A stretch of 64,000 bases of DNA from Bacteroidota bacterium (GTDB taxonomy: Bacteria > Bacteroidota > Bacteroidia > SXHM01). Positions 33,498 through 42,556 of the stretch are shown one piece after another (position 1 is the first letter of the stretch; each line of letters begins with the position of its first letter). Location of the stretch: the NCBI GenBank assembly GCA_947478465.1, contig CANJWH010000005.1:1-64000 (forward strand), given 5' to 3'. Under the pieces are notes generated by a model. That model had not been told where the DNA came from. It did no database searches and saw nothing but the letters and a program-made list of their open reading frames with translations. Position numbers and translations under genes: made by a program.

Positions 33498-33579
33498 CGA
33501 ATAAAATTTGCGCTAAAGTATTCAGAATTCGGGTTAACATAATTCAACATGAACAGAAAAATAAATTATCCCAAAAATG

Positions 33580-33657: not shown

Positions 33658-36384
33658 ATGCTAAACAGAATCATAGTTATTAACTCTGAGTTGTATGCCA
33701 AGGCAGCAATTCAGATAGGCCAGAACAGCAGTATTCAGATGACTGCCGAAAACAACGTGGGGAAAAGCTCCTTCCTGAACACACTCAACTTTCTTTACAT
33801 CACGGATAAAGATCAGATGCGTTTTGAGGATAACCGCAAACTGGCCGACTCCATGAAACACTATTTTGACGGAACAAGTCTGCATAGTTTCATCATTTTC
33901 GAAATTTTTAAAACCGAATATTACTGCCTGCTGGTTAAAGCAACTCCTGAAAACACCATTGAGTATTACCGTTTGCCCGGAGCATTTAAAGAAGAAAATT
34001 TTATTCAGAAATCTGCCGACTCCTCAAAAGTAAAACGTTGGGATAAAATTCTGGAGGAGATGACCAAAGAAAATCCGCTTGACCCGCCTGTATTGCTCAA
34101 AGGAGAAGACCTTTACAACACGGTTTACAATTCAGACCGCACAAAAAATCCCGTTGTCTGGATTAAACGCGAAGTAAAACGCAAAGGCCGTTCGTTCTCC
34201 AACAGCTTTACCGAAATCTACCGTCACCTGATTAAAACAAGTGATATCAGCGAAAAATCTTTTAAGAATGCGTTGCTTATTGCCGACAACAAACAAGACC
34301 TTTCATTGAATGTTTTCACCAGTTCAAGCTTTGAAAAGATTAATGAGTTCGAAAAAAAGAAACATCATCTGGATAATCTTTCGGCAGTAAAACAGGACTT
34401 TGAAAAGCTGAAATTGCTGAATGACAAATTCTCAACCGAAGAAAATATTCTTGCAAAGCTGAAGCACACCTTTGTGTTGCATTTCAATGCAATTGAAAAA
34501 GAACTGTGGGAGAAAACTGGTTCAGAAAGTCCGCTTTCTCTTTCTATCCGCGAACTGGAAAACAAAATTGAATATACGCTGAAACATCAGCGCGACCATT
34601 TGATTACCGAAAAAGCAAATCTGAATAATCAGATTTCAAACGCCACCAACGCCATTGAAGAAATAAATAAACAATTGGCCGAAGTAGCAGATTTTGAGCC
34701 TACAGAAGACAACCTGATGTTTCAGGGCATTATGGCAAAGTACGAAGAAGAGAACCGTCAGCGCATCAATATTGAAGCACAGATCATGCAACTCGACCGC
34801 AGTAAATTTACCTTGCAGGAAGTAGAGAGTGCAATCAAAAAGCTGAATGACGAAATTGAACAGCAGCAAAAAAATATCAAAGATTTTGATAACCTGCTTT
34901 ATCAGAACATCTCAACAAAGGCTGATGTAATCAGCAAAGTTTATACTTACCTGAGCAGCGATGTGGCTTTCTTAAGCAAATCGCACATCAAGAAAAAAAT
35001 TACCAAAGCAGATTTGCCGCTTTCGTTTTTTGATGGTAAAATTGATGTGAAAGGAATTGAACTGAAACATCCTCCAACTGTTAAACAATTGCAGGACGAA
35101 GTAAAAACAAAGAAGAAAGAGCTTGCAGAAAAAACAATTCAGTTAGAGGCAATAAAAAACCGCAGCACACTGCAACAGCAGGTAGAGAAGCTTGCTCAAT
35201 CCATTGCTGATACTGCCAAGCTGATTAAAAAGATCAACGATAAACCTTCGTTGGTTGCAGCTAAAAAAGAAAACGAAGCATTGGTAAACAGCAAGCTGAG
35301 AAAAACACTGAGCGAAATTCAGCGCAAGATTGATGCTAAAGATGCAGAGATAACTAAAGAGAAAGAAACACTGGCTGCACGCAAATTAGAACTGAACAGG
35401 CTGCATGCTAATCTTTCAAAATACCGCGAGCAATACGAACACATTATTGCCAAGAACGATATTCTTGACACAGACGAAACCGTGAACGAACATTTTGATA
35501 AAATCTACGACCGCTTTTACCGTGTGTATGATAGTTTCCGTGCAACACGCGAGCAACGTAAAGAGTTGAAAGATGCCATCAATAAAAAGCTGGACAAAGA
35601 CATTCAGGATATAAAAGAGTTTGTTACAGAGGTTGAAGAAGAGATCAGCAATATTCCTCAAATGGATAAGGTTATCAGTAATTTGCTGGATACACTTTCT
35701 TATGAGATTGGAAATCCTACGCATTCATTCCTTACACAGTTCAACGATTTTAAAACGTTTATCTACAAAAGCTACAACGCAAAACTTGCCGAATATCCGG
35801 TTTCGAATATTCAAAGTGTGCGGGTAAAAATTGTTGAGAATGAAGAAATGATTCAGGATCTGGAAAAAATTTCGCGTTTGAAATTTACCGGTGGAATTGA
35901 TTTTGACAACGGGTACACTGAAAGCAAAAAAGCTCTGGAGAAACAACTGACCGACAGCAAAGGCAAACCGGTAGACATAACCGATTTGTTTACCATTAAA
36001 GTTGAGATTACTAAAGTTACAGGCGAAAGTGAAGAGATTGATTTGTCGAAACAGGTACAATCGCGTGGAACTAACATTGTGTTGAAACTTTATCTATTCC
36101 TGAACATTCTGAAAGATCTTGTGCACAGTGATCCTGAAAATAAAATTGTGATTTATGTGGATGAGCTGGATGCTATCGGGCAGAAGAACGTGAAGCAACT
36201 GGTGCGTTTCTGTATAGACCACAACTTTGTTCCCATCTTTGCTGCACCAAGAAAAGTAGAAGGCATTCAGAAGTATTATCTGGTGAAAGAGCCGCTGGTA
36301 AAAGATAAAGGAGCTGCCCGTAAACCCAAGATTACTTTTGGCGAGTTGCAATCATTTCCTGTTACTTACAGAAATGCGAATTAG
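33658..36384 (+). CDS. MksB/JetC-like SMC (condensin) ATPase
   Basis: I start at the ATG at 33658 (908 residues, MLNRIIVINSELYAKA). An ATG 81 bases earlier overlaps the palindrome and adds nothing conserved. Walker A is AENNVGKSS (residues 30-38), with Ala in place of the usual first Gly. Residues about 225-690 are long coiled coils with no Cys-x-x-Cys hook. The C-terminal head has a QSRGT signature (about 800), where SMC/ABC proteins have LSGG-like sequence, and Walker B VIYVDELDAIG (about 832). The length is close to MksB and much shorter than MukB. With the two following genes it forms a three-subunit SMC operon. By analogy it would load on DNA and extrude loops for chromosome folding or plasmid/phage exclusion. 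The family assignment is from architecture. Confidence 0.72.
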   Translation: MLNRIIVINSELYAKAAIQIGQNSSIQMTAENNVGKSSFLNTLNFLYITDKDQMRFEDNRKLADSMKHYFDGTSLHSFIIFEIFKTEYYCLLVKATPENTIEYYRLPGAFKEENFIQKSADSSKVKRWDKILEEMTKENPLDPPVLLKGEDLYNTVYNSDRTKNPVVWIKREVKRKGRSFSNSFTEIYRHLIKTSDISEKSFKNALLIADNKQDLSLNVFTSSSFEKINEFEKKKHHLDNLSAVKQDFEKLKLLNDKFSTEENILAKLKHTFVLHFNAIEKELWEKTGSESPLSLSIRELENKIEYTLKHQRDHLITEKANLNNQISNATNAIEEINKQLAEVADFEPTEDNLMFQGIMAKYEEENRQRINIEAQIMQLDRSKFTLQEVESAIKKLNDEIEQQQKNIKDFDNLLYQNISTKADVISKVYTYLSSDVAFLSKSHIKKKITKADLPLSFFDGKIDVKGIELKHPPTVKQLQDEVKTKKKELAEKTIQLEAIKNRSTLQQQVEKLAQSIADTAKLIKKINDKPSLVAAKKENEALVNSKLRKTLSEIQRKIDAKDAEITKEKETLAARKLELNRLHANLSKYREQYEHIIAKNDILDTDETVNEHFDKIYDRFYRVYDSFRATREQRKELKDAINKKLDKDIQDIKEFVTEVEEEISNIPQMDKVISNLLDTLSYEIGNPTHSFLTQFNDFKTFIYKSYNAKLAEYPVSNIQSVRVKIVENEEMIQDLEKISRLKFTGGIDFDNGYTESKKALEKQLTDSKGKPVDITDLFTIKVEITKVTGESEEIDLSKQVQSRGTNIVLKLYLFLNILKDLVHSDPENKIVIYVDELDAIGQKNVKQLVRFCIDHNFVPIFAAPRKVEGIQKYYLVKEPLVKDKGAARKPKITFGELQSFPVTYRNAN

Positions 36385-36387
36385 ACC

Positions 36388-37620
36388 ATGAGCAATTTAA
36401 ATTTATCGGGTAAAGAAATACTGCGTTTTTTGAATACGCATTATGAGTTTGTGCACAGCGCCTTTGTTGCGGGCAAGCCACATTTTATGATTGATTCGGA
36501 CAAGTTCATGCGTCTGCTTCATGATTACAATGCAAAGAACGAAAGCAAAATTTCGCTTTACCGTCTTACATCGGAAGTAAAATTCTGCCGTCAGCTTTCA
36601 ACCGGTGAGTATAAACTCAACCGCAATTACATTCCTTTTCTGGAATACCTGTTCAATGATTTTGTGCTCAACTTACCGGAGACGTTGAAGAACAGGTATC
36701 AGGCGGTTTTCAATCACTACAATTCGTTGAAAGACGAAACAAGTGCTTACCGTATTGTTTTACTAACGCAGGAAATCATTAATGTAATTGAAGACTTCCT
36801 CAGTGATATTGAAGGACAAACACAGCGACTGCTGCGCGATACCGAGGCGCTGAAAGTCAATGTGGGAAATCATTCTGCTTTCTCAACCCGTATTCAACGT
36901 GCTAATTTCTGGATTGACGAATACATTATTCCGCTCAATGCTATATTGGATAAAGACCGTGCTGATTCAATTGTAAACATGATTATTAAGTTGCAGCAAT
37001 ACTCCAATGAAAGACGTTTGCTCTCTGATAATTATGAATTGAAACTGGAGTTTGAAAAACTTTATGCCTGTGCTGTAAATGCAAAATCGGAATTAGATAA
37101 AACGCTGAGCAAACTTACGCGCGAATTATTGCCGCTGCTGGAACGCATAAAAAGTGATTCCATTATCCTTAACGGCTTTTATCATTTTGTGGAAAACATT
37201 GATGACCCTAAAGCCTATGTTGCAGCACTTCCGCATATTGTTCGCAGAACAAAATCAAGTGTTACCTCTCATTCATTTGCTGCCGAGGCCGAGTTTTACA
37301 TTGATCAGTTCAGCTACCTGACACCCGAAATTCTTTTCAACGAAAGCGAAGAAGATGTAGAGTGGCTGCCCGATGCAGGTTACTTTAAAGATAAACTGCT
37401 GAAAGAAGACGGAGTAAAAGATTTTTACAAATGGTGTTTAACTTCGCTGGAAGAACAAACCGAAACCATTACACTTTCCAAATTTTTTACGCTTACCAAT
37501 ATGCTGCTGGACGAAGATCTGGTAGTAGAATACAAAGACGAAAAGCGCCAGGAAATAAAACTGGCCGATGCCACCTTATTAATGCCAAAAATTAAAGTTT
37601 ATGCAAAGCTATCCAAGTGA
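36388..37620 (+). CDS. MksF/JetA-like kleisin subunit (tentative)
   Basis: The 410-residue soluble, mostly helical protein starts three bases after the SMC stop. The first 90 residues look like a winged-helix region (GKEILRFLNTHYEFVHSAFV), the middle (about 100-240) is helical with coiled-coil stretches, and the C-terminus (about 320-405) has a second compact domain ending with LADATLLMPKIKVYAKL. Position between an SMC gene and an MksE-like gene, size and the winged-helix plus coil arrangement suggest the bridging kleisin. Sequence similarity to MksF or JetA is too low for me to confirm. It overlaps the next gene by 20 bases. Confidence 0.55.
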   Translation: MSNLNLSGKEILRFLNTHYEFVHSAFVAGKPHFMIDSDKFMRLLHDYNAKNESKISLYRLTSEVKFCRQLSTGEYKLNRNYIPFLEYLFNDFVLNLPETLKNRYQAVFNHYNSLKDETSAYRIVLLTQEIINVIEDFLSDIEGQTQRLLRDTEALKVNVGNHSAFSTRIQRANFWIDEYIIPLNAILDKDRADSIVNMIIKLQQYSNERRLLSDNYELKLEFEKLYACAVNAKSELDKTLSKLTRELLPLLERIKSDSIILNGFYHFVENIDDPKAYVAALPHIVRRTKSSVTSHSFAAEAEFYIDQFSYLTPEILFNESEEDVEWLPDAGYFKDKLLKEDGVKDFYKWCLTSLEEQTETITLSKFFTLTNMLLDEDLVVEYKDEKRQEIKLADATLLMPKIKVYAKLSK

Positions 37621-38119
37621 ACACCGTGAAATTGTAAGCGCTCTGGTTGACGGACGTTTCGTTATTTATCCTAATCCCACCTTTGTTTCGCTGAAACTGC
37701 AGGAAGAAGAATACCGCGAATTTTTTACGCAGAGTTACGGGTATGAACTGGTAATTGATTCAGAGATTGCTTACCTTACTTCAACAGAAGGAACCGAAAA
37801 ACGTACCCGTGATTTTGTATTGTTTCTTGCCTTGCTTTGCCGTGAGCTGGATTACAGCGGAAAGAATTTCCGTGATGCTATTGACGTTGGTGTTTTTGAC
37901 ATGGCCGAAACAGAACAGATGCTCCGCCAATCATCTAAATGGGAAGTACTGGAAAAAACTTCGGTGGCCGACTTTAATGAGTTCATCAGTATCTGGCATC
38001 GTAAGAATGTTTTGTTCCGTGCCGAAGGACAATTTAAATTTACCAAAGCGGTGAAAATCTTTTTTGACTTTGCAGTGAATGTTGCGAATGCGAAGTTGAA
38101 GGAAGTGGAGGCGATGTGA
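37601..38119 (+). CDS. MksE/JetB-like accessory (kite) subunit
   Basis: The 172-residue protein begins inside the previous gene (20-base overlap). The pattern EIVSALVDGRFVIYP, then EEYREFFTQSYGYELVIDSEIAYL, then FVLFLALLCRELDY matches the paired winged-helix layout of MksE-type (DUF4194) proteins that dock on the kleisin. Its size also fits. A hairpin repeat begins right at the stop codon. No JetD/MksG-type Toprim nuclease gene follows, which separates this operon from complete Wadjet systems. Confidence 0.62.
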   Translation: MQSYPSEHREIVSALVDGRFVIYPNPTFVSLKLQEEEYREFFTQSYGYELVIDSEIAYLTSTEGTEKRTRDFVLFLALLCRELDYSGKNFRDAIDVGVFDMAETEQMLRQSSKWEVLEKTSVADFNEFISIWHRKNVLFRAEGQFKFTKAVKIFFDFAVNVANAKLKEVEAM

Positions 38120-38157
38120 CCACACCCCTAACCCCTCTCCTTATTTAAGGAGAGGGG
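38120..38157. repeat. Hairpin repeat, CCACACCCCTAACCCCTCTCC type (also a likely terminator)
   Basis: The 12-bp stem 38132-38143/38146-38157 is perfect with a two-base loop and is preceded by the lead CCACACCCCTAA. A second copy with the same lead (CCTCACCCCTGA) lies at 43684-43720. The element directly follows the SMC operon. No T run follows, so terminator function is uncertain. Confidence 0.6.
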
Positions 38158-38253
38158 GACTGCAGCCGCGCAGCACCTAAACTGCATTAGAAAAAACGCA
38201 GGCAACTTTACTAAGTTTTTATGTATTGTAAGTTTTGAAACCATAATCTGCTT

Positions 38254-38640
38254 TTAGCGGGCAGCTGGCTTCTTTATTTGTTCATGAAGTTGTTTATACC
38301 TAAAATGCGCTGGTGAGGACAATTTAGAAATGAGTTTTTTTAACTGAGTTAAAAGCTGGTTTGATTGAGGAAGCTTTAATGAGAACATAGGAAGGCGTAT
38401 AAGTAATTAAGAAGTTAATGGAGGTAAATCAGGAGTTAATAAACGTAAATTAGGAGTTGCCATAAGTAAATGAGGAGTTAACATGTGTAAATGAGGAGTT
38501 AGTATAGTTTAATCAGGAGTTAGTATTAAGTTCTGAGGAATTATTACTACGACCTTAGGAATTGACATTAAGGTTTCAGGGATTAGCATGCAGGAGAGAG
38601 GAAGCGATAAATACGGAAGAGGAACGGAATACTAAAACAT
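38254..38640 (-). pseudogene. Degenerate proline-heptad protein with a basic C-terminal segment
   Basis: One minus-strand frame reads through 38640-38254 with stops at 38632-38634, 38509-38511 and 38407-38409. The upstream two thirds spell heptads of the form LTPxLxx (for example MLTPHLL, MATPNLR, LLTPDLP) that correspond to the 21-bp DNA repeat. The last 44 codons, from a possible ATG at 38388, read MFSLKLPQSNQLLTQLKK ... LHEQIKKPAAR and then TAA. The joined reading suggests a once-intact protein; the C-terminal 44-residue piece might still be expressed. The function is unknown. Confidence 0.45.
38368..38640. repeat. Thirteen tandem 21-bp units in exact register
   Basis: The word AGGAGTT or a close variant starts at 38368, 38389, 38410, 38431, 38452, 38473, 38494, 38515, 38536, 38557, 38578, 38599 and 38620, always 21 bases apart with no indel. 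The central units are most alike (GTAAATnAGGAGTTA). The minus strand has a CCT codon at each start except 38410. Confidence 0.85.
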
Positions 38641-38666
38641 TGGATTTGTACGTTAACTAAAACAGA

Positions 38667-38687
38667 AGCATTGCACGGTGCAATGCT
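38667..38687. promoter_or_regulatory. 21-bp palindrome before the small protein gene
   Basis: AGCATTGCAC and its exact reverse complement flank a single central G, 21 bases before the ATG at 38709. It could be an operator or an RNA hairpin in the leader. Confidence 0.45.
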
Positions 38688-38708
38688 CTATTATAAACTG
38701 TACAGAAC

Positions 38709-38957
38709 ATGAAAAAATTAACACAGGAGGAGGCGGATGCCATAAAGGTATTGCCCCCGGGAAAAAGAACTTTGTTAAGGGTAACGTTGCTGAGCATGAA
38801 CACCGGTGAGATTATATTAATTGAGCCACATGAATGGACGTGGAAGAACCAACCGCTGAGCACGTATTGCAGGCGACTGGAAAAGCTGACGAAGCGAAGG
38901 TTTGATTGCCGCAAAGCGGTGGATGGAACGGGGTGGGTGGTGAAGAGGGTGGGGTGA
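38709..38957 (+). CDS. Small basic hypothetical protein
   Basis: The 82-residue protein is rich in Lys and Arg in its second half (YCRRLEKLTKRRFDCRKAVDG). It starts MKKLTQEEADAIKVLPPGKR and ends GWVVKRVG. The basic helix followed by a Trp-Val-Val strand suggests nucleic-acid binding. No domain is named. Similar short proteins with KLT-EE openings and GW(I/V)V-R ends occur in Bacteroidota accessory DNA as far as I recall. It diverges from the heptad element and has a palindrome in front of it. A minus-strand ORF in the same place is hydrophobic and unlikely to be real. Confidence 0.65.
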   Translation: MKKLTQEEADAIKVLPPGKRTLLRVTLLSMNTGEIILIEPHEWTWKNQPLSTYCRRLEKLTKRRFDCRKAVDGTGWVVKRVG

Positions 38958-39127
38958 TTGCGATAAATGCCGTTTCAACAAGTAATTTGGGACACGAGGG
39001 CGAGGGTGCGTCTTAGGGGATAATCAGAGATTATGAACGGAAATACATAAAAAATCTTTTTTCAGATATTTTCATATATCTTCACCCAATCTGATGCCCT
39101 AAGGGCTTACCTAATCCAACCAACATA

Positions 39128-39364
39128 ATGAATTATTCTTCTACGCGATCAGCAGGCTGCCGCATTGCACTTTTTTTGCTTGTGATTAATTGTCAGTTAT
39201 CAAGTTTAAATTTATTGGCACAGTCTCCTGAAAAAATCAACTATCAAGGTGTTGCTCGCGATATTGGTGGCAACATTCTTGGTGCTCAGAATATTGGACT
39301 GCGATTTACACTGCACAGCAGCTCACCTGGTGGTACTGCTGTTTATCAGGAAACGCCCACGTAA
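39128..39364 (+). CDS. N-terminal part of a surface protein interrupted by a frameshift
   Basis: The 78-residue piece has a signal-peptide-like start (CRIALFLLVINCQLSSLNLLAQ) and EKINYQGVARDIGGNILG, the usual beginning of Bacteroidota tail-fibre-domain proteins. The frame then ends at TAA (39362-39364) right after VYQET. The next frame continues HVTTNNFGLFNVEIGGG without a gap, so adding one base in the CCC run at 39355-39360 would fuse it with the downstream ORF. See the next entry. I regard these as one gene with a single-base error or mutation. Confidence 0.75.
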   Translation: MNYSSTRSAGCRIALFLLVINCQLSSLNLLAQSPEKINYQGVARDIGGNILGAQNIGLRFTLHSSSPGGTAVYQETPT

Positions 39365-39381
39365 CTACCAATAACTTTGGC

Positions 39382-41688
39382 TTGTTCAATGTGGAAATAG
39401 GAGGAGGCATAGTGATTTCAGGAAGTGTGGCGACCATCAACTGGGGCAATAACAGCTATTATGTGCAAACCGAAATGGATGCCACAGGCGGAACCAATTA
39501 CAACAATATGGGAACTTCACAACTGCTGAGTGTACCATACGCACTTTATGCCAAAACAACAGGGACTCCCGGCCCGGCAGGGCCTGCCAGAGCCACAGGC
39601 CCTGCCGGTAGTACAGGAGCAACTGGAATTGGAGCAGTTGGTCCAACAGGTCCAACCGGCAGCAGCGGCAGCAGCTGGTCGCTTACCGGAAATTCGGGAA
39701 CGAACCAGAGTACAAACTTTATTGGCACCACCGATAACGTTCCTCTTAATATTCGTGTCAATAACCAAAAAGCTGGAGAAATAGATGCATCTTCAGTTGG
39801 TAACACTTTTTTAGGATATCTGTCCGGAAATTCCAATATTTCTGATACATATAGCACAGGTATTGGAGTTGAGGCGCTATTTTCAAATACTACAGGATAC
39901 CAAAATACCGCCCTCGGAAACCGAGCGCTTTATAATAACACAACCGGATACTACAATACCGCTACCGGGTATCAGGCGCTTTTTGCCAACACAACCGGAA
40001 TACAAAATACTGCAAACGGTCAGCAAGCACTTTTGAGTAACACTACAGGAAACAATAACACCGCCAGTGGGTATTTTGCCCTTGGAGCCAACACAACAGG
40101 AAATTCCAATACCGCTATCGGCACACAAGCACTTACCGGCAATACTACCGGACAAGAAAATACGGCAATAGGAACAGGGGCGCTTCAAAGCAACTCAACC
40201 GGAAATTACAATACCGCCACCGGACTTAGATCGCTTTTTGTCAACACAAGCGGAGCTGAAAATACCGCCACCGGACATTATGCCCTTAGTAGTAACATAA
40301 CAGGCACTGCCAATACCGCAACAGGGTTTCAGGCACTTTTTTTCAATACCACAGGAAATTCCAACACCGCCAATGGTCATCTGGCACTAACCAACAACAC
40401 AGGTTCGTTCAATACCGCCATTGGAACAAGTGCACTTCAATTCAATACTTCGGCAAACAGCAATACTGCCACAGGGTACCGGGCGCTATATAATAACACT
40501 ACAGGAAGTAATAATACTGCAATTGGCATGTCGGCACTTCAATTCAATACCTCTGCAAATAATAATTCCGCCTTCGGAAAAACTGCGCTTTATGCCAATA
40601 CCACAGGAAGCAGCAACACTGCAATTGGAACGAGTGCGCTTCAACTCAACACCACAGGCGCATACAATACAGCAAACGGAACCATTGCTCTTTCTAATAA
40701 TACCATAGGAAACAACAACACCGCCACCGGCAACGGATCACTCTTTTCCAACACTAACGGAGGTAACAACACCTCCACCGGATACAATACACTTTATAAC
40801 AACACAACAGGAATAAACAACACAGCAAATGGTTTCGAGGCATTACTTTCAAACGTTACAGGAGTAGGTAATACCGCCACCGGGTCGGGAGCACTTAAAT
40901 CAAATACAGATAGCTACAATACAGCATATGGAATGGGGTCTCTTTATTCCAACACCTCCGGTCAACAAAATAGTGCATTCGGATATAATTCACTCTACGC
41001 CCACACCACAGGTATTTTCAATACCGCTATAGGTTGGGGGGCACTTTTTCATGTTACTGATGGCAGTAGAAATACTGCATTGGGGCATTTTGCAGGTAAT
41101 ACAATTGTAGGAGGTACTTTCAATACTTTTATTGGATTTAATGCAAATTCAGATGATGCCTCACGAACGGGTTGTATTGCTTTGGCAAGTAATGATAACC
41201 TGGCTTTCGGAGGAAATAACAGGGTAAGAATTGGTAACAGTTCCATTACATCTATTGGGGGGCAGGTGAGCTGGACAACTATCTCAGATGAGCGGGTGAA
41301 AACTAACTTTGAAGATAATGTTGCCGGTCTTTCGTTTATTATGAAACTGAAACCCTATACCTATAATTACAGCATTGCAGCAAGCAATAAGGTACAAGGT
41401 AAGACTGATACTATTAACTGGACAGGTAAATATGATATTGAACAAATGCGCTTTAGCGGTTTCCGCTCCCAGGAAGTAGAACAGGCAGCCATAGCAGCAG
41501 GTTATAACTTCAGCGGGGTGGATAAACCGCAAGATGCCGATGGTTTATGGGGTTTGCGATATGCTGACTTTACTGTGCCACTCGTAAAAGCTGTTCAGGA
41601 ACAGCAACAAATTATCTTACAATTGATAAAACAAAATGAAGCAATGTTCACAAGACTTTACGAACTTGAGCAAAAAACAAATAAATAG
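39382..41688 (+). CDS. Repeat-rich surface protein with S74 intramolecular chaperone (frameshifted main part)
   Basis: The open frame carries, in order, a beta-rich segment, a collagen-like stretch (GPAGSTGATGIGAVGPTGPT), 23 repeats of 17 residues of the type NTTGxxNTAxGxxALxx, and a C-terminal peptidase S74 domain with SDERVKTNF (the Ser-Lys dyad of self-cleaving tail-spike chaperones), LKPYTYNY and FRSQEVEQAAIAAG. These proteins trimerise, then cleave off the chaperone. The NTxxG repeats resemble the head repeats of trimeric adhesins and form beta-helices. Its start given here is a TTG inside the fused gene; the true start is at 39128. An adhesive or surface-fibre role is inferred. Confidence 0.85.
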   Translation: MFNVEIGGGIVISGSVATINWGNNSYYVQTEMDATGGTNYNNMGTSQLLSVPYALYAKTTGTPGPAGPARATGPAGSTGATGIGAVGPTGPTGSSGSSWSLTGNSGTNQSTNFIGTTDNVPLNIRVNNQKAGEIDASSVGNTFLGYLSGNSNISDTYSTGIGVEALFSNTTGYQNTALGNRALYNNTTGYYNTATGYQALFANTTGIQNTANGQQALLSNTTGNNNTASGYFALGANTTGNSNTAIGTQALTGNTTGQENTAIGTGALQSNSTGNYNTATGLRSLFVNTSGAENTATGHYALSSNITGTANTATGFQALFFNTTGNSNTANGHLALTNNTGSFNTAIGTSALQFNTSANSNTATGYRALYNNTTGSNNTAIGMSALQFNTSANNNSAFGKTALYANTTGSSNTAIGTSALQLNTTGAYNTANGTIALSNNTIGNNNTATGNGSLFSNTNGGNNTSTGYNTLYNNTTGINNTANGFEALLSNVTGVGNTATGSGALKSNTDSYNTAYGMGSLYSNTSGQQNSAFGYNSLYAHTTGIFNTAIGWGALFHVTDGSRNTALGHFAGNTIVGGTFNTFIGFNANSDDASRTGCIALASNDNLAFGGNNRVRIGNSSITSIGGQVSWTTISDERVKTNFEDNVAGLSFIMKLKPYTYNYSIAASNKVQGKTDTINWTGKYDIEQMRFSGFRSQEVEQAAIAAGYNFSGVDKPQDADGLWGLRYADFTVPLVKAVQEQQQIILQLIKQNEAMFTRLYELEQKTNK
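39886..41052 (+). repeat. Coding repeats: 23 units of 17 residues (about 51 bp)
   Basis: Counting from NTTGYQNTALGNRALYN to HTTGIFNTAIGWGALFH gives 23 units: 21 of 17 residues and two of 16, which add up exactly to the 389 codons. Individual units vary at the DNA level, so this is an old array, not a recent expansion. Confidence 0.85.
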
Positions 41689-41757
41689 TTTATACCCTGG
41701 ATTAAAGGTCGTTGTTAAGAGACTACCAGGTTACATTGCCCAATTATTTTAATTAAC

Positions 41758-41795
41758 AAAAAAGCCTTCTGTCCATGGTTCGTGGGGCTTTTTTT
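41758..41795 (+). terminator. Terminator after the repeat protein
   Basis: AAAAAAGCC (41758-41766) pairs with GGCTTTTTT (41786-41794), ending in a T tract. The loop is about 19 bases. It is 70 bases after the stop at 41688. Confidence 0.7.
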
Positions 41796-41832
41796 ATTGG
41801 TTTCAGTAATTACTCTGCGTGCTGCCTCTCTG

Positions 41833-41869
41833 CACCCTTTGCGGTTAAAGGGTGTTGATTTTTTTTTAT
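41833..41869 (+). terminator. Second terminator-like hairpin
   Basis: CACCCTTT (41833-41840) pairs with AAAGGGTG (41847-41854), followed by TTGATTTTTTTTT. It insulates the toxin-antitoxin pair from upstream transcription. Confidence 0.6.
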
Positions 41870-41919
41870 TGCAAAGTCACCAAACAGAGACATTAACTCG
41901 TAAAGCAAAACATATTTTG

Positions 41920-41927
41920 TAATTTTG
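41920..41927 (+). promoter_or_regulatory. -7 promoter element TAATTTTG for the toxin-antitoxin pair
   Basis: An exact TAnnTTTG match 16 bases before the antitoxin ATG at 41944. Confidence 0.5.
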
Positions 41928-41943
41928 AATATCAATTAAATGT

Positions 41944-42228
41944 ATGAAACAAAAACGCGGTAAAAAAGAATATGCAAAAGAACAGGTAGTTCACCATGCA
42001 AAAGAACCTGCCGCAGTTTATAGCATCACTAAACCCGAAAACAACATGCTCTCAAAATCTTCTGTAATTGATTCTGTAAAAAATCTTCCTAATAAATTTA
42101 CGATAGATGAATTAATCGAACGATTGTTGTTTATGCAATCGGTAGAAAAAGGAATAAAAGATTCTAAAGAGGGAAGAGTCTACACCGAAGCCGAGGCTAA
42201 GAAAAAGCTGAAGAAATGGCTAAAGTAA
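41944..42228 (+). CDS. Putative antitoxin of a RelE/ParE-type pair
   Basis: The 94-residue protein has a basic, probably flexible N-terminus (MKQKRGKKEYAKEQVVHH) and a helical C-terminal part FTIDELIERLLFMQSVEKGI, then KKKLKKWLK. The C-terminal helix pattern, small size and a 13-base overlap with the following ParE-like toxin fit an antitoxin that blocks the toxin and represses the shared promoter. No named DNA-binding fold is visible, so the identity comes mostly from position. Confidence 0.7.
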   Translation: MKQKRGKKEYAKEQVVHHAKEPAAVYSITKPENNMLSKSSVIDSVKNLPNKFTIDELIERLLFMQSVEKGIKDSKEGRVYTEAEAKKKLKKWLK

Positions 42229-42503
42229 TATGGACTGCCAATGCACTTGAAAACTTAGATGATATTGCAGAATACATTGCAAAAGATTCGTTGCATTATG
42301 CTGAACTGACTTTAGCCAAACTCTTTTCCTCAACTGAAATGCTTAAAAAGTATCCTCTCTTGGGAAGAGTTGTTCCTGAATTTGAGTTGGAACATATCCG
42401 CGAAATTATTGAAGGTGGTTACAGGATTGTTTACCAGATTAAAGACGATAAAACTATTGAAGTGCTGTCTGTAAGGCATGGGTCAAAATTGATGAAGATG
42501 TAG
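42216..42503 (+). CDS. RelE/ParE-family toxin
   Basis: The 95-residue protein matches the plasmid-stabilisation toxin family: VIWTANALENLDDIAEYIAKDS at the N-terminus, a central GRVVPEFELEHIREI and the C-terminal strand pattern GYRIVYQIKDDKTIEVLSVRHGSK. ParE proteins poison gyrase and RelE proteins cut mRNA on the ribosome; the sequence resembles ParE more. It follows its antitoxin with a 13-base overlap, which couples translation. It is the last accessory gene before mqnC. Confidence 0.85.
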   Translation: MAKVIWTANALENLDDIAEYIAKDSLHYAELTLAKLFSSTEMLKKYPLLGRVVPEFELEHIREIIEGGYRIVYQIKDDKTIEVLSVRHGSKLMKM

Positions 42504-42538
42504 TCCCTGCCTTGTATAGTTGGCAAGTATAAATCCTC

Positions 42539-42546
42539 TATATTTG
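42539..42546 (+). promoter_or_regulatory. -7 promoter element TATATTTG for mqnC
   Basis: An exact TAnnTTTG match 10 bases before the ATG at 42557. A TTG at 42520-42522 may be the -33 element, with a spacing of 16. Confidence 0.5.
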
Positions 42547-42556
42547 CCTTCTTATA

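Follow-up and report, generated by a model that had tools for sequence, protein, structure and literature searches.

A three-gene SMC operon of Bacteroidota that probably derives from a Wadjet-type defence system by loss of the JetD nuclease gene

We have analysed an operon of three genes, encoding an SMC ATPase, a kleisin and a kite protein, in a 64,000-nucleotide stretch of DNA from a Bacteroidota bacterium, hereafter the window (Table 1). The coordinates and lengths of the genes, the 3-base gap between SMC and kleisin and the 20-base overlap between kleisin and kite, as given in a preliminary description made from the sequence alone, were all confirmed. An alternative in-frame ATG for the SMC gene is found at 33577, but the alignment of orthologues begins at 33658 (MLNRI). 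All three frames are open in every complete copy of the operon, and conservation of the set in six of the seven genus genomes, and in many Bacteroidota besides, confirms that the operon is real and beyond chance. The Walker A, signature and Walker B motifs of the SMC protein are present as described and, with the central FDGKID motif, are invariant across 18 relatives. The alanine in Walker A and the QSRGT signature do occur, as had been pointed out, but they are common to close relatives that carry a nuclease gene, and a reading of the ATPase as degenerate was dropped for this reason.

Table 1. Features of the operon in the window (nucleotide positions, or residues of the SMC protein where indicated)
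Feature	Position	Strand	Basis
SMC subunit, MksB/JetC-like, 908 aa	33658..36384	+	ORF and translation
SMC, Walker A AENNVGKSS	residues 30-38		
SMC, FDGKID (hinge region, central, conserved)	residues 458-463		
SMC, signature QSRGT	residues 801-805		
SMC, Walker B VIYVDELDAIG	residues 830-840		
Putative deletion scar, former JetD start site	36374..36391	+	Junction comparison with 13 JetD-bearing relatives, and sequence
Kleisin subunit, MksF/JetA-like, 410 aa	36388..37620	+	AlphaFold model against PDB
Kite subunit, MksE/JetB-like, 172 aa	37601..38119	+	Pfam MksE PF21980

The kite protein matches the Pfam MksE family at 68.8 bits (cut-off 27), while the SMC protein matches the DUF3584 and JetC2 profiles weakly and the kleisin has no usable match among the family profiles of Pfam and the PADLOC models. 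Sequence searches of all three proteins against the PDB, even with alignments, returned nothing useful, and fold prediction was therefore used. AlphaFold models of the SMC protein and the kleisin were built on 18 relatives. For the kleisin (mean pLDDT 78.6), the top five PDB matches were MukF/JetA chains (best E 1.1e-5) with low full-length TM-scores of 0.14-0.36; for the SMC protein (pLDDT 77.2), the top five Foldseek matches were MukB (best E 1.1e-15), with Rad50 ranking below them and JetC of Wadjet I and II also further down. Low full-length TM-scores are expected because the proteins are elongated and multi-domain and the relative placement in the models is approximate, and the evidence from folds thus lies in the ranking of the matches rather than in the scores. 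The SMC protein scores 28.7 bits against the canonical Smc profile TIGR02168, far below its cut-off of 567, and does not belong to Smc-ScpAB. Placement in a RecN or Rad50-like clade, which the preliminary description had named as the outcome that would overturn its view, was not seen either: MukB outranks Rad50, and the SMC gene is accompanied by kleisin and kite genes, which also argues against Rad50/SbcC. Profiles and predicted folds together support a MukB/JetC-like SMC, a MukF/JetA-like kleisin and an MksE-like kite, so that the earlier assignment of all three subunits to the MksBEF/Wadjet group holds. Counterparts of JetA, JetB and JetC of Wadjet are thereby recognized by profile and fold, but the operon has no JetD.

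The operon had been described as lacking a nuclease gene at its 3' end, and indeed none was found downstream in the window, elsewhere in the genome or in six congeners. A profile search for JetD was negative in all seven genomes of the genus, and it detected the gene in each of the 16 control genomes where JetD was known to occur. The proposed survey of gene neighbourhoods for a conserved fourth gene was informative outside the genus, where each of the 13 nearest relatives (SMC identity 54-69%, plus two at 33-35%; closest 66-69%) has a JetD-type gene encoding about 270 aa between its SMC and kleisin genes; among the congeners, no conserved neighbouring nuclease was found. Ten of 12 JetD-type proteins tested match Pfam JetD_C and seven match PADLOC JetD1, and the Toprim catalytic E and DxD are intact in all 18 JetD proteins found. 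In the nearest relatives, the JetD frame overlaps the end of the SMC gene by 11 bases and the start of the kleisin gene by four. In the genus of the window, the bases ACC separate the SMC stop from the kleisin ATG. The junction can be read as a scar in which an ATG lying within the end of the SMC gene, at 36374, opens a frame of five codons that closes at a TGA overlapping the kleisin ATG, just as the JetD stop overlaps it in the relatives. This ATG is mutated in two congeners, which argues for a scar and not a conserved open reading frame. One congener (G002) has 156 bases between SMC and kleisin (L035, 1849-2004) where the others have three; these bases were considered as a JetD remnant and the idea was dropped, as they show no similarity in any frame. 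Changes fixed in the genus do not cluster at the possible contact surface for JetD and are scattered (28 in SMC, 18 in kleisin and 7 in kite).

The direction of this difference was judged from trees and from the relatives' own JetD genes. All sequences were from metagenome assemblies, and a scan of the whole collection gave 188 loci encoding a relative of the SMC protein, of which 80 were kept. The genus groups with L033, L034 and L036 in a clade of eight rows (support 97/98), and the AU test rejects a topology that unites the 11 JetD-bearing rows to the exclusion of the genus (p 0.0017). Across 18 operons, distances between JetD proteins correlate with the corresponding distances for SMC, kleisin and kite (rho 0.78-0.82; none of 2000 permutations as high), and this co-divergence makes JetD an ancestral member of the operon. 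In a separate nuclease-free lineage (L066), the 430-base gap between SMC and kleisin still holds a 55-residue fragment of the JetD C-terminus. The fragment is devoid of the catalytic E and DxD and aligns with the intact JetD of L069, a relative of L066, at 54.5% identity (E 6e-16). Nesting, co-divergence and this fossil indicate that the change was a loss, and a recurrent one; the genus is nested among JetD-bearing operons and has lost JetD precisely. It could instead be held that this is an ordinary MksBEF of Bacteroidota that never had a nuclease, and that its relatives gained JetD. The wider family lends this some weight, as 69 of the 87 rows in the large tree lack JetD and simple parsimony on that tree requires at least six changes of state (only six on a plain count, more if only losses are allowed). 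With the genus inside the JetD-bearing rows, JetD found at the same place and diverging in step with its operon partners in every one of the 18 carriers, and a fossil in L066, we consider that history very unlikely. The genome G397/G219, the source of L036, carries both a JetD-bearing operon and a nuclease-free operon of the other clade. It also has two more loci of the MksE type, and a weak JetD-like match lies near one of them.

Within the genus, the operon is 93-99% identical (kleisin 93-96%), and the single genome in which it was not detected is 78% complete. It occupies the identical locus in the four carriers with visible flanks, a fifth being on a 4-kb contig; outside the genus, it occurs across Bacteroidota in unrelated neighbourhoods. 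An insertion hot spot separates the kite gene from the next conserved one, which is CofH-like (window 38120-42556; L016 11193-19308). This interval measures about 100 bases in three congeners. In the window, it encodes a 768-aa protein of repetitive sequence and a toxin-antitoxin pair judged by eye to be RelE/ParE-like, and in G003 it holds other cargo and the same pair at more than 91% identity. Downstream of the operon, positions 38420-38560 contain short tandem repeats, imperfect and of the type 'taaatgaggagttaa'.

Ratios of dN/dS within the genus are 0.013-0.027 for SMC, 0.012-0.061 for kleisin and 0.010-0.094 for kite, against 0.07-0.18 for the adjoining metabolic gene. Other nuclease-free members have a median SMC value of 0.022 (seven pairs), and nuclease-bearing pairs range from 0.07 to 0.16 with a median of 0.099 (six pairs, every one from a single Flavobacteriaceae-type clade). 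The two groups do not differ in their kleisin and kite values. The genus stem measures 0.35 against 0.12-0.18 in the JetD-bearing sisters, and a long stem followed by slow evolution would be compatible with a change of role and subsequent conservation. Such a stem, together with the missing effector gene, might be expected of a defence system in decay, with no present function. That reading is hardly credible, as the selection data contradict it: an SMC dN/dS of about 0.02 means that the operon is not decaying, the values for all three genes stay within 0.01-0.09, their frames are open in complete copies, and the Walker and signature residues are intact. Among the nuclease-bearing loci L041, L042 and L044, SMC dS is about 0.6 and kleisin dS about 0.2 in pairs with L044, a roughly threefold excess suggestive of an SMC gene that has recombined or been exchanged.

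Other condensins were sought by profile search, and neither Smc (TIGR02168) nor ScpA was found in the seven genomes of the genus, two of which are 98-99% complete. Among 395 sampled Bacteroidia, 91 have Smc, 47 have the kleisin of this operon and one has both (G214, whose operon bears JetD). The JetD-free operon and Smc never occur together in this sample (Fisher p 2e-5 by genome, but about 0.11 by family, the genomes being related). Hosts of JetD-bearing operons likewise lack Smc in 10 of 13 cases, and 258 of the 395 Bacteroidia lack both canonical Smc and this kleisin. Absence of Smc is thus nothing special in the class and the test by family is not significant, which restricts how far a housekeeping role can be claimed and weakens the statement that the complex is certainly the only condensin. 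An MksE-type kite was found in only 119 of the 395, and the models used show no chromosome organiser in most of the sampled genomes.

We propose that the ancestor of the operon was a four-gene Wadjet plasmid-defence operon in the order SMC-JetD-kleisin-kite, and that the ancestor of the genus lost the nuclease gene by a precise deletion. Without JetD, the ATP-driven motor of SMC, kleisin and kite would most likely still entrap DNA and extrude loops, and the complex would now serve as a chromosome-organising condensin of the MksBEF type. We give a probability of roughly 0.7 to the reading that this is an MksBEF-type SMC complex that arose from Wadjet by loss of JetD and now organises the chromosome; loop extrusion and the chromosomal role are inferred from the family. 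The clean deletion of JetD, with the rest of the operon under strong selection, suggests that a defence machine became a chromosome organiser. At slightly less than even odds, we would go further and regard the complex as a defence system domesticated by excision of its nuclease, as the main condensin of a genus without detectable Smc-ScpAB, and as one instance of a loss that recurred many times in Bacteroidota while nuclease-bearing sister systems survived.

The preliminary description had left the choice between a divergent condensin and a defence system whose effector lies elsewhere or is different; the condensin is favoured here, and an effector elsewhere is disfavoured by the JetD searches given above. 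Still, the complex might defend against plasmids or phages with no nuclease of its own, by compacting and silencing circular foreign DNA or by recruiting an unrelated nuclease from elsewhere in the genome. Its nearest relatives are nuclease-bearing Wadjet-type operons, and two of these adjoin restriction-modification or other defence-type genes, whereas the locus in the genus is constant. One of the two (L043) is flanked by a type III restriction-modification pair on one side and a type IV restriction enzyme on the other, with an adjoining regulator that clusters with the WYL-type regulator beside the other (L036), which also adjoins a phosphoesterase/AAA pair; no defence neighbours were seen at the other JetD-bearing loci checked. 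Smc5/6 offers a precedent for an SMC complex that restricts circular DNA without a nuclease (PMC10586767). We nevertheless regard continued defence as unlikely: the operon is syntenic, near-universal in the genus and under housekeeping-like constraint, unlike a mobile defence gene, the congeners have neither a conserved neighbouring nuclease nor JetD in their genomes, and suppression of plasmid transformation is stated to require the full set of four Jet subunits (PMC10586767).

Loss of JetD has been proposed before: according to reviews, the MksBEF and MukBEF condensins may derive from nuclease-armed Wadjet in this way (PMC10586767), and several members of the Wadjet group lack MksG/JetD (PMC7617805). 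What is new here is a recent, clean and nested loss in a branch of Bacteroidota whose nuclease gene lies in mid-operon. The examples known previously are old, and the present one is accompanied by repeated losses in other lineages, by the L066 fossil and by nuclease-bearing sisters, which at 66-69% SMC identity make the step from defence to housekeeping testable by part swaps. The arrangement SMC-JetD-kleisin-kite may be under-detected, given that the PADLOC kleisin models miss this kleisin and that one published survey of Wadjet asked for hits to MksB, MksF and MksE that directly follow one another and are flanked by MksG (PMC7617805).

Wadjet itself (JetABCD, also MksBEFG or EptABCD) has the same MukB/JetC-like SMC, MukF/JetA-like kleisin and MksE/JetB-like kite in one operon, and the sister operons of the genus carry JetD. 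It differs from the operon of the window in having that nuclease, and the latter has an SMC of only 908 aa and a kleisin that escapes the PADLOC kleisin models. The order of mksFEBG is kleisin-kite-SMC-nuclease (PMC10123090), against SMC-(JetD)-kleisin-kite in the operon of the window and its relatives. MukBEF of Escherichia coli gives the best PDB fold matches of the SMC and kleisin and is likewise nuclease-free. MukBEF serves where Smc-ScpAB is absent. The MukB chains among the PDB matches have about 1,470 residues against 908 in the SMC studied here, and the aligned folds share about 10-12% sequence identity. In Pseudomonas aeruginosa, the gene order of MksBEF differs and the host also has Smc (PMC7485682), which was not found in the genus of the window; by comparison with that system, the loss in the genus is recent, as relatives at 66-69% SMC identity keep JetD.
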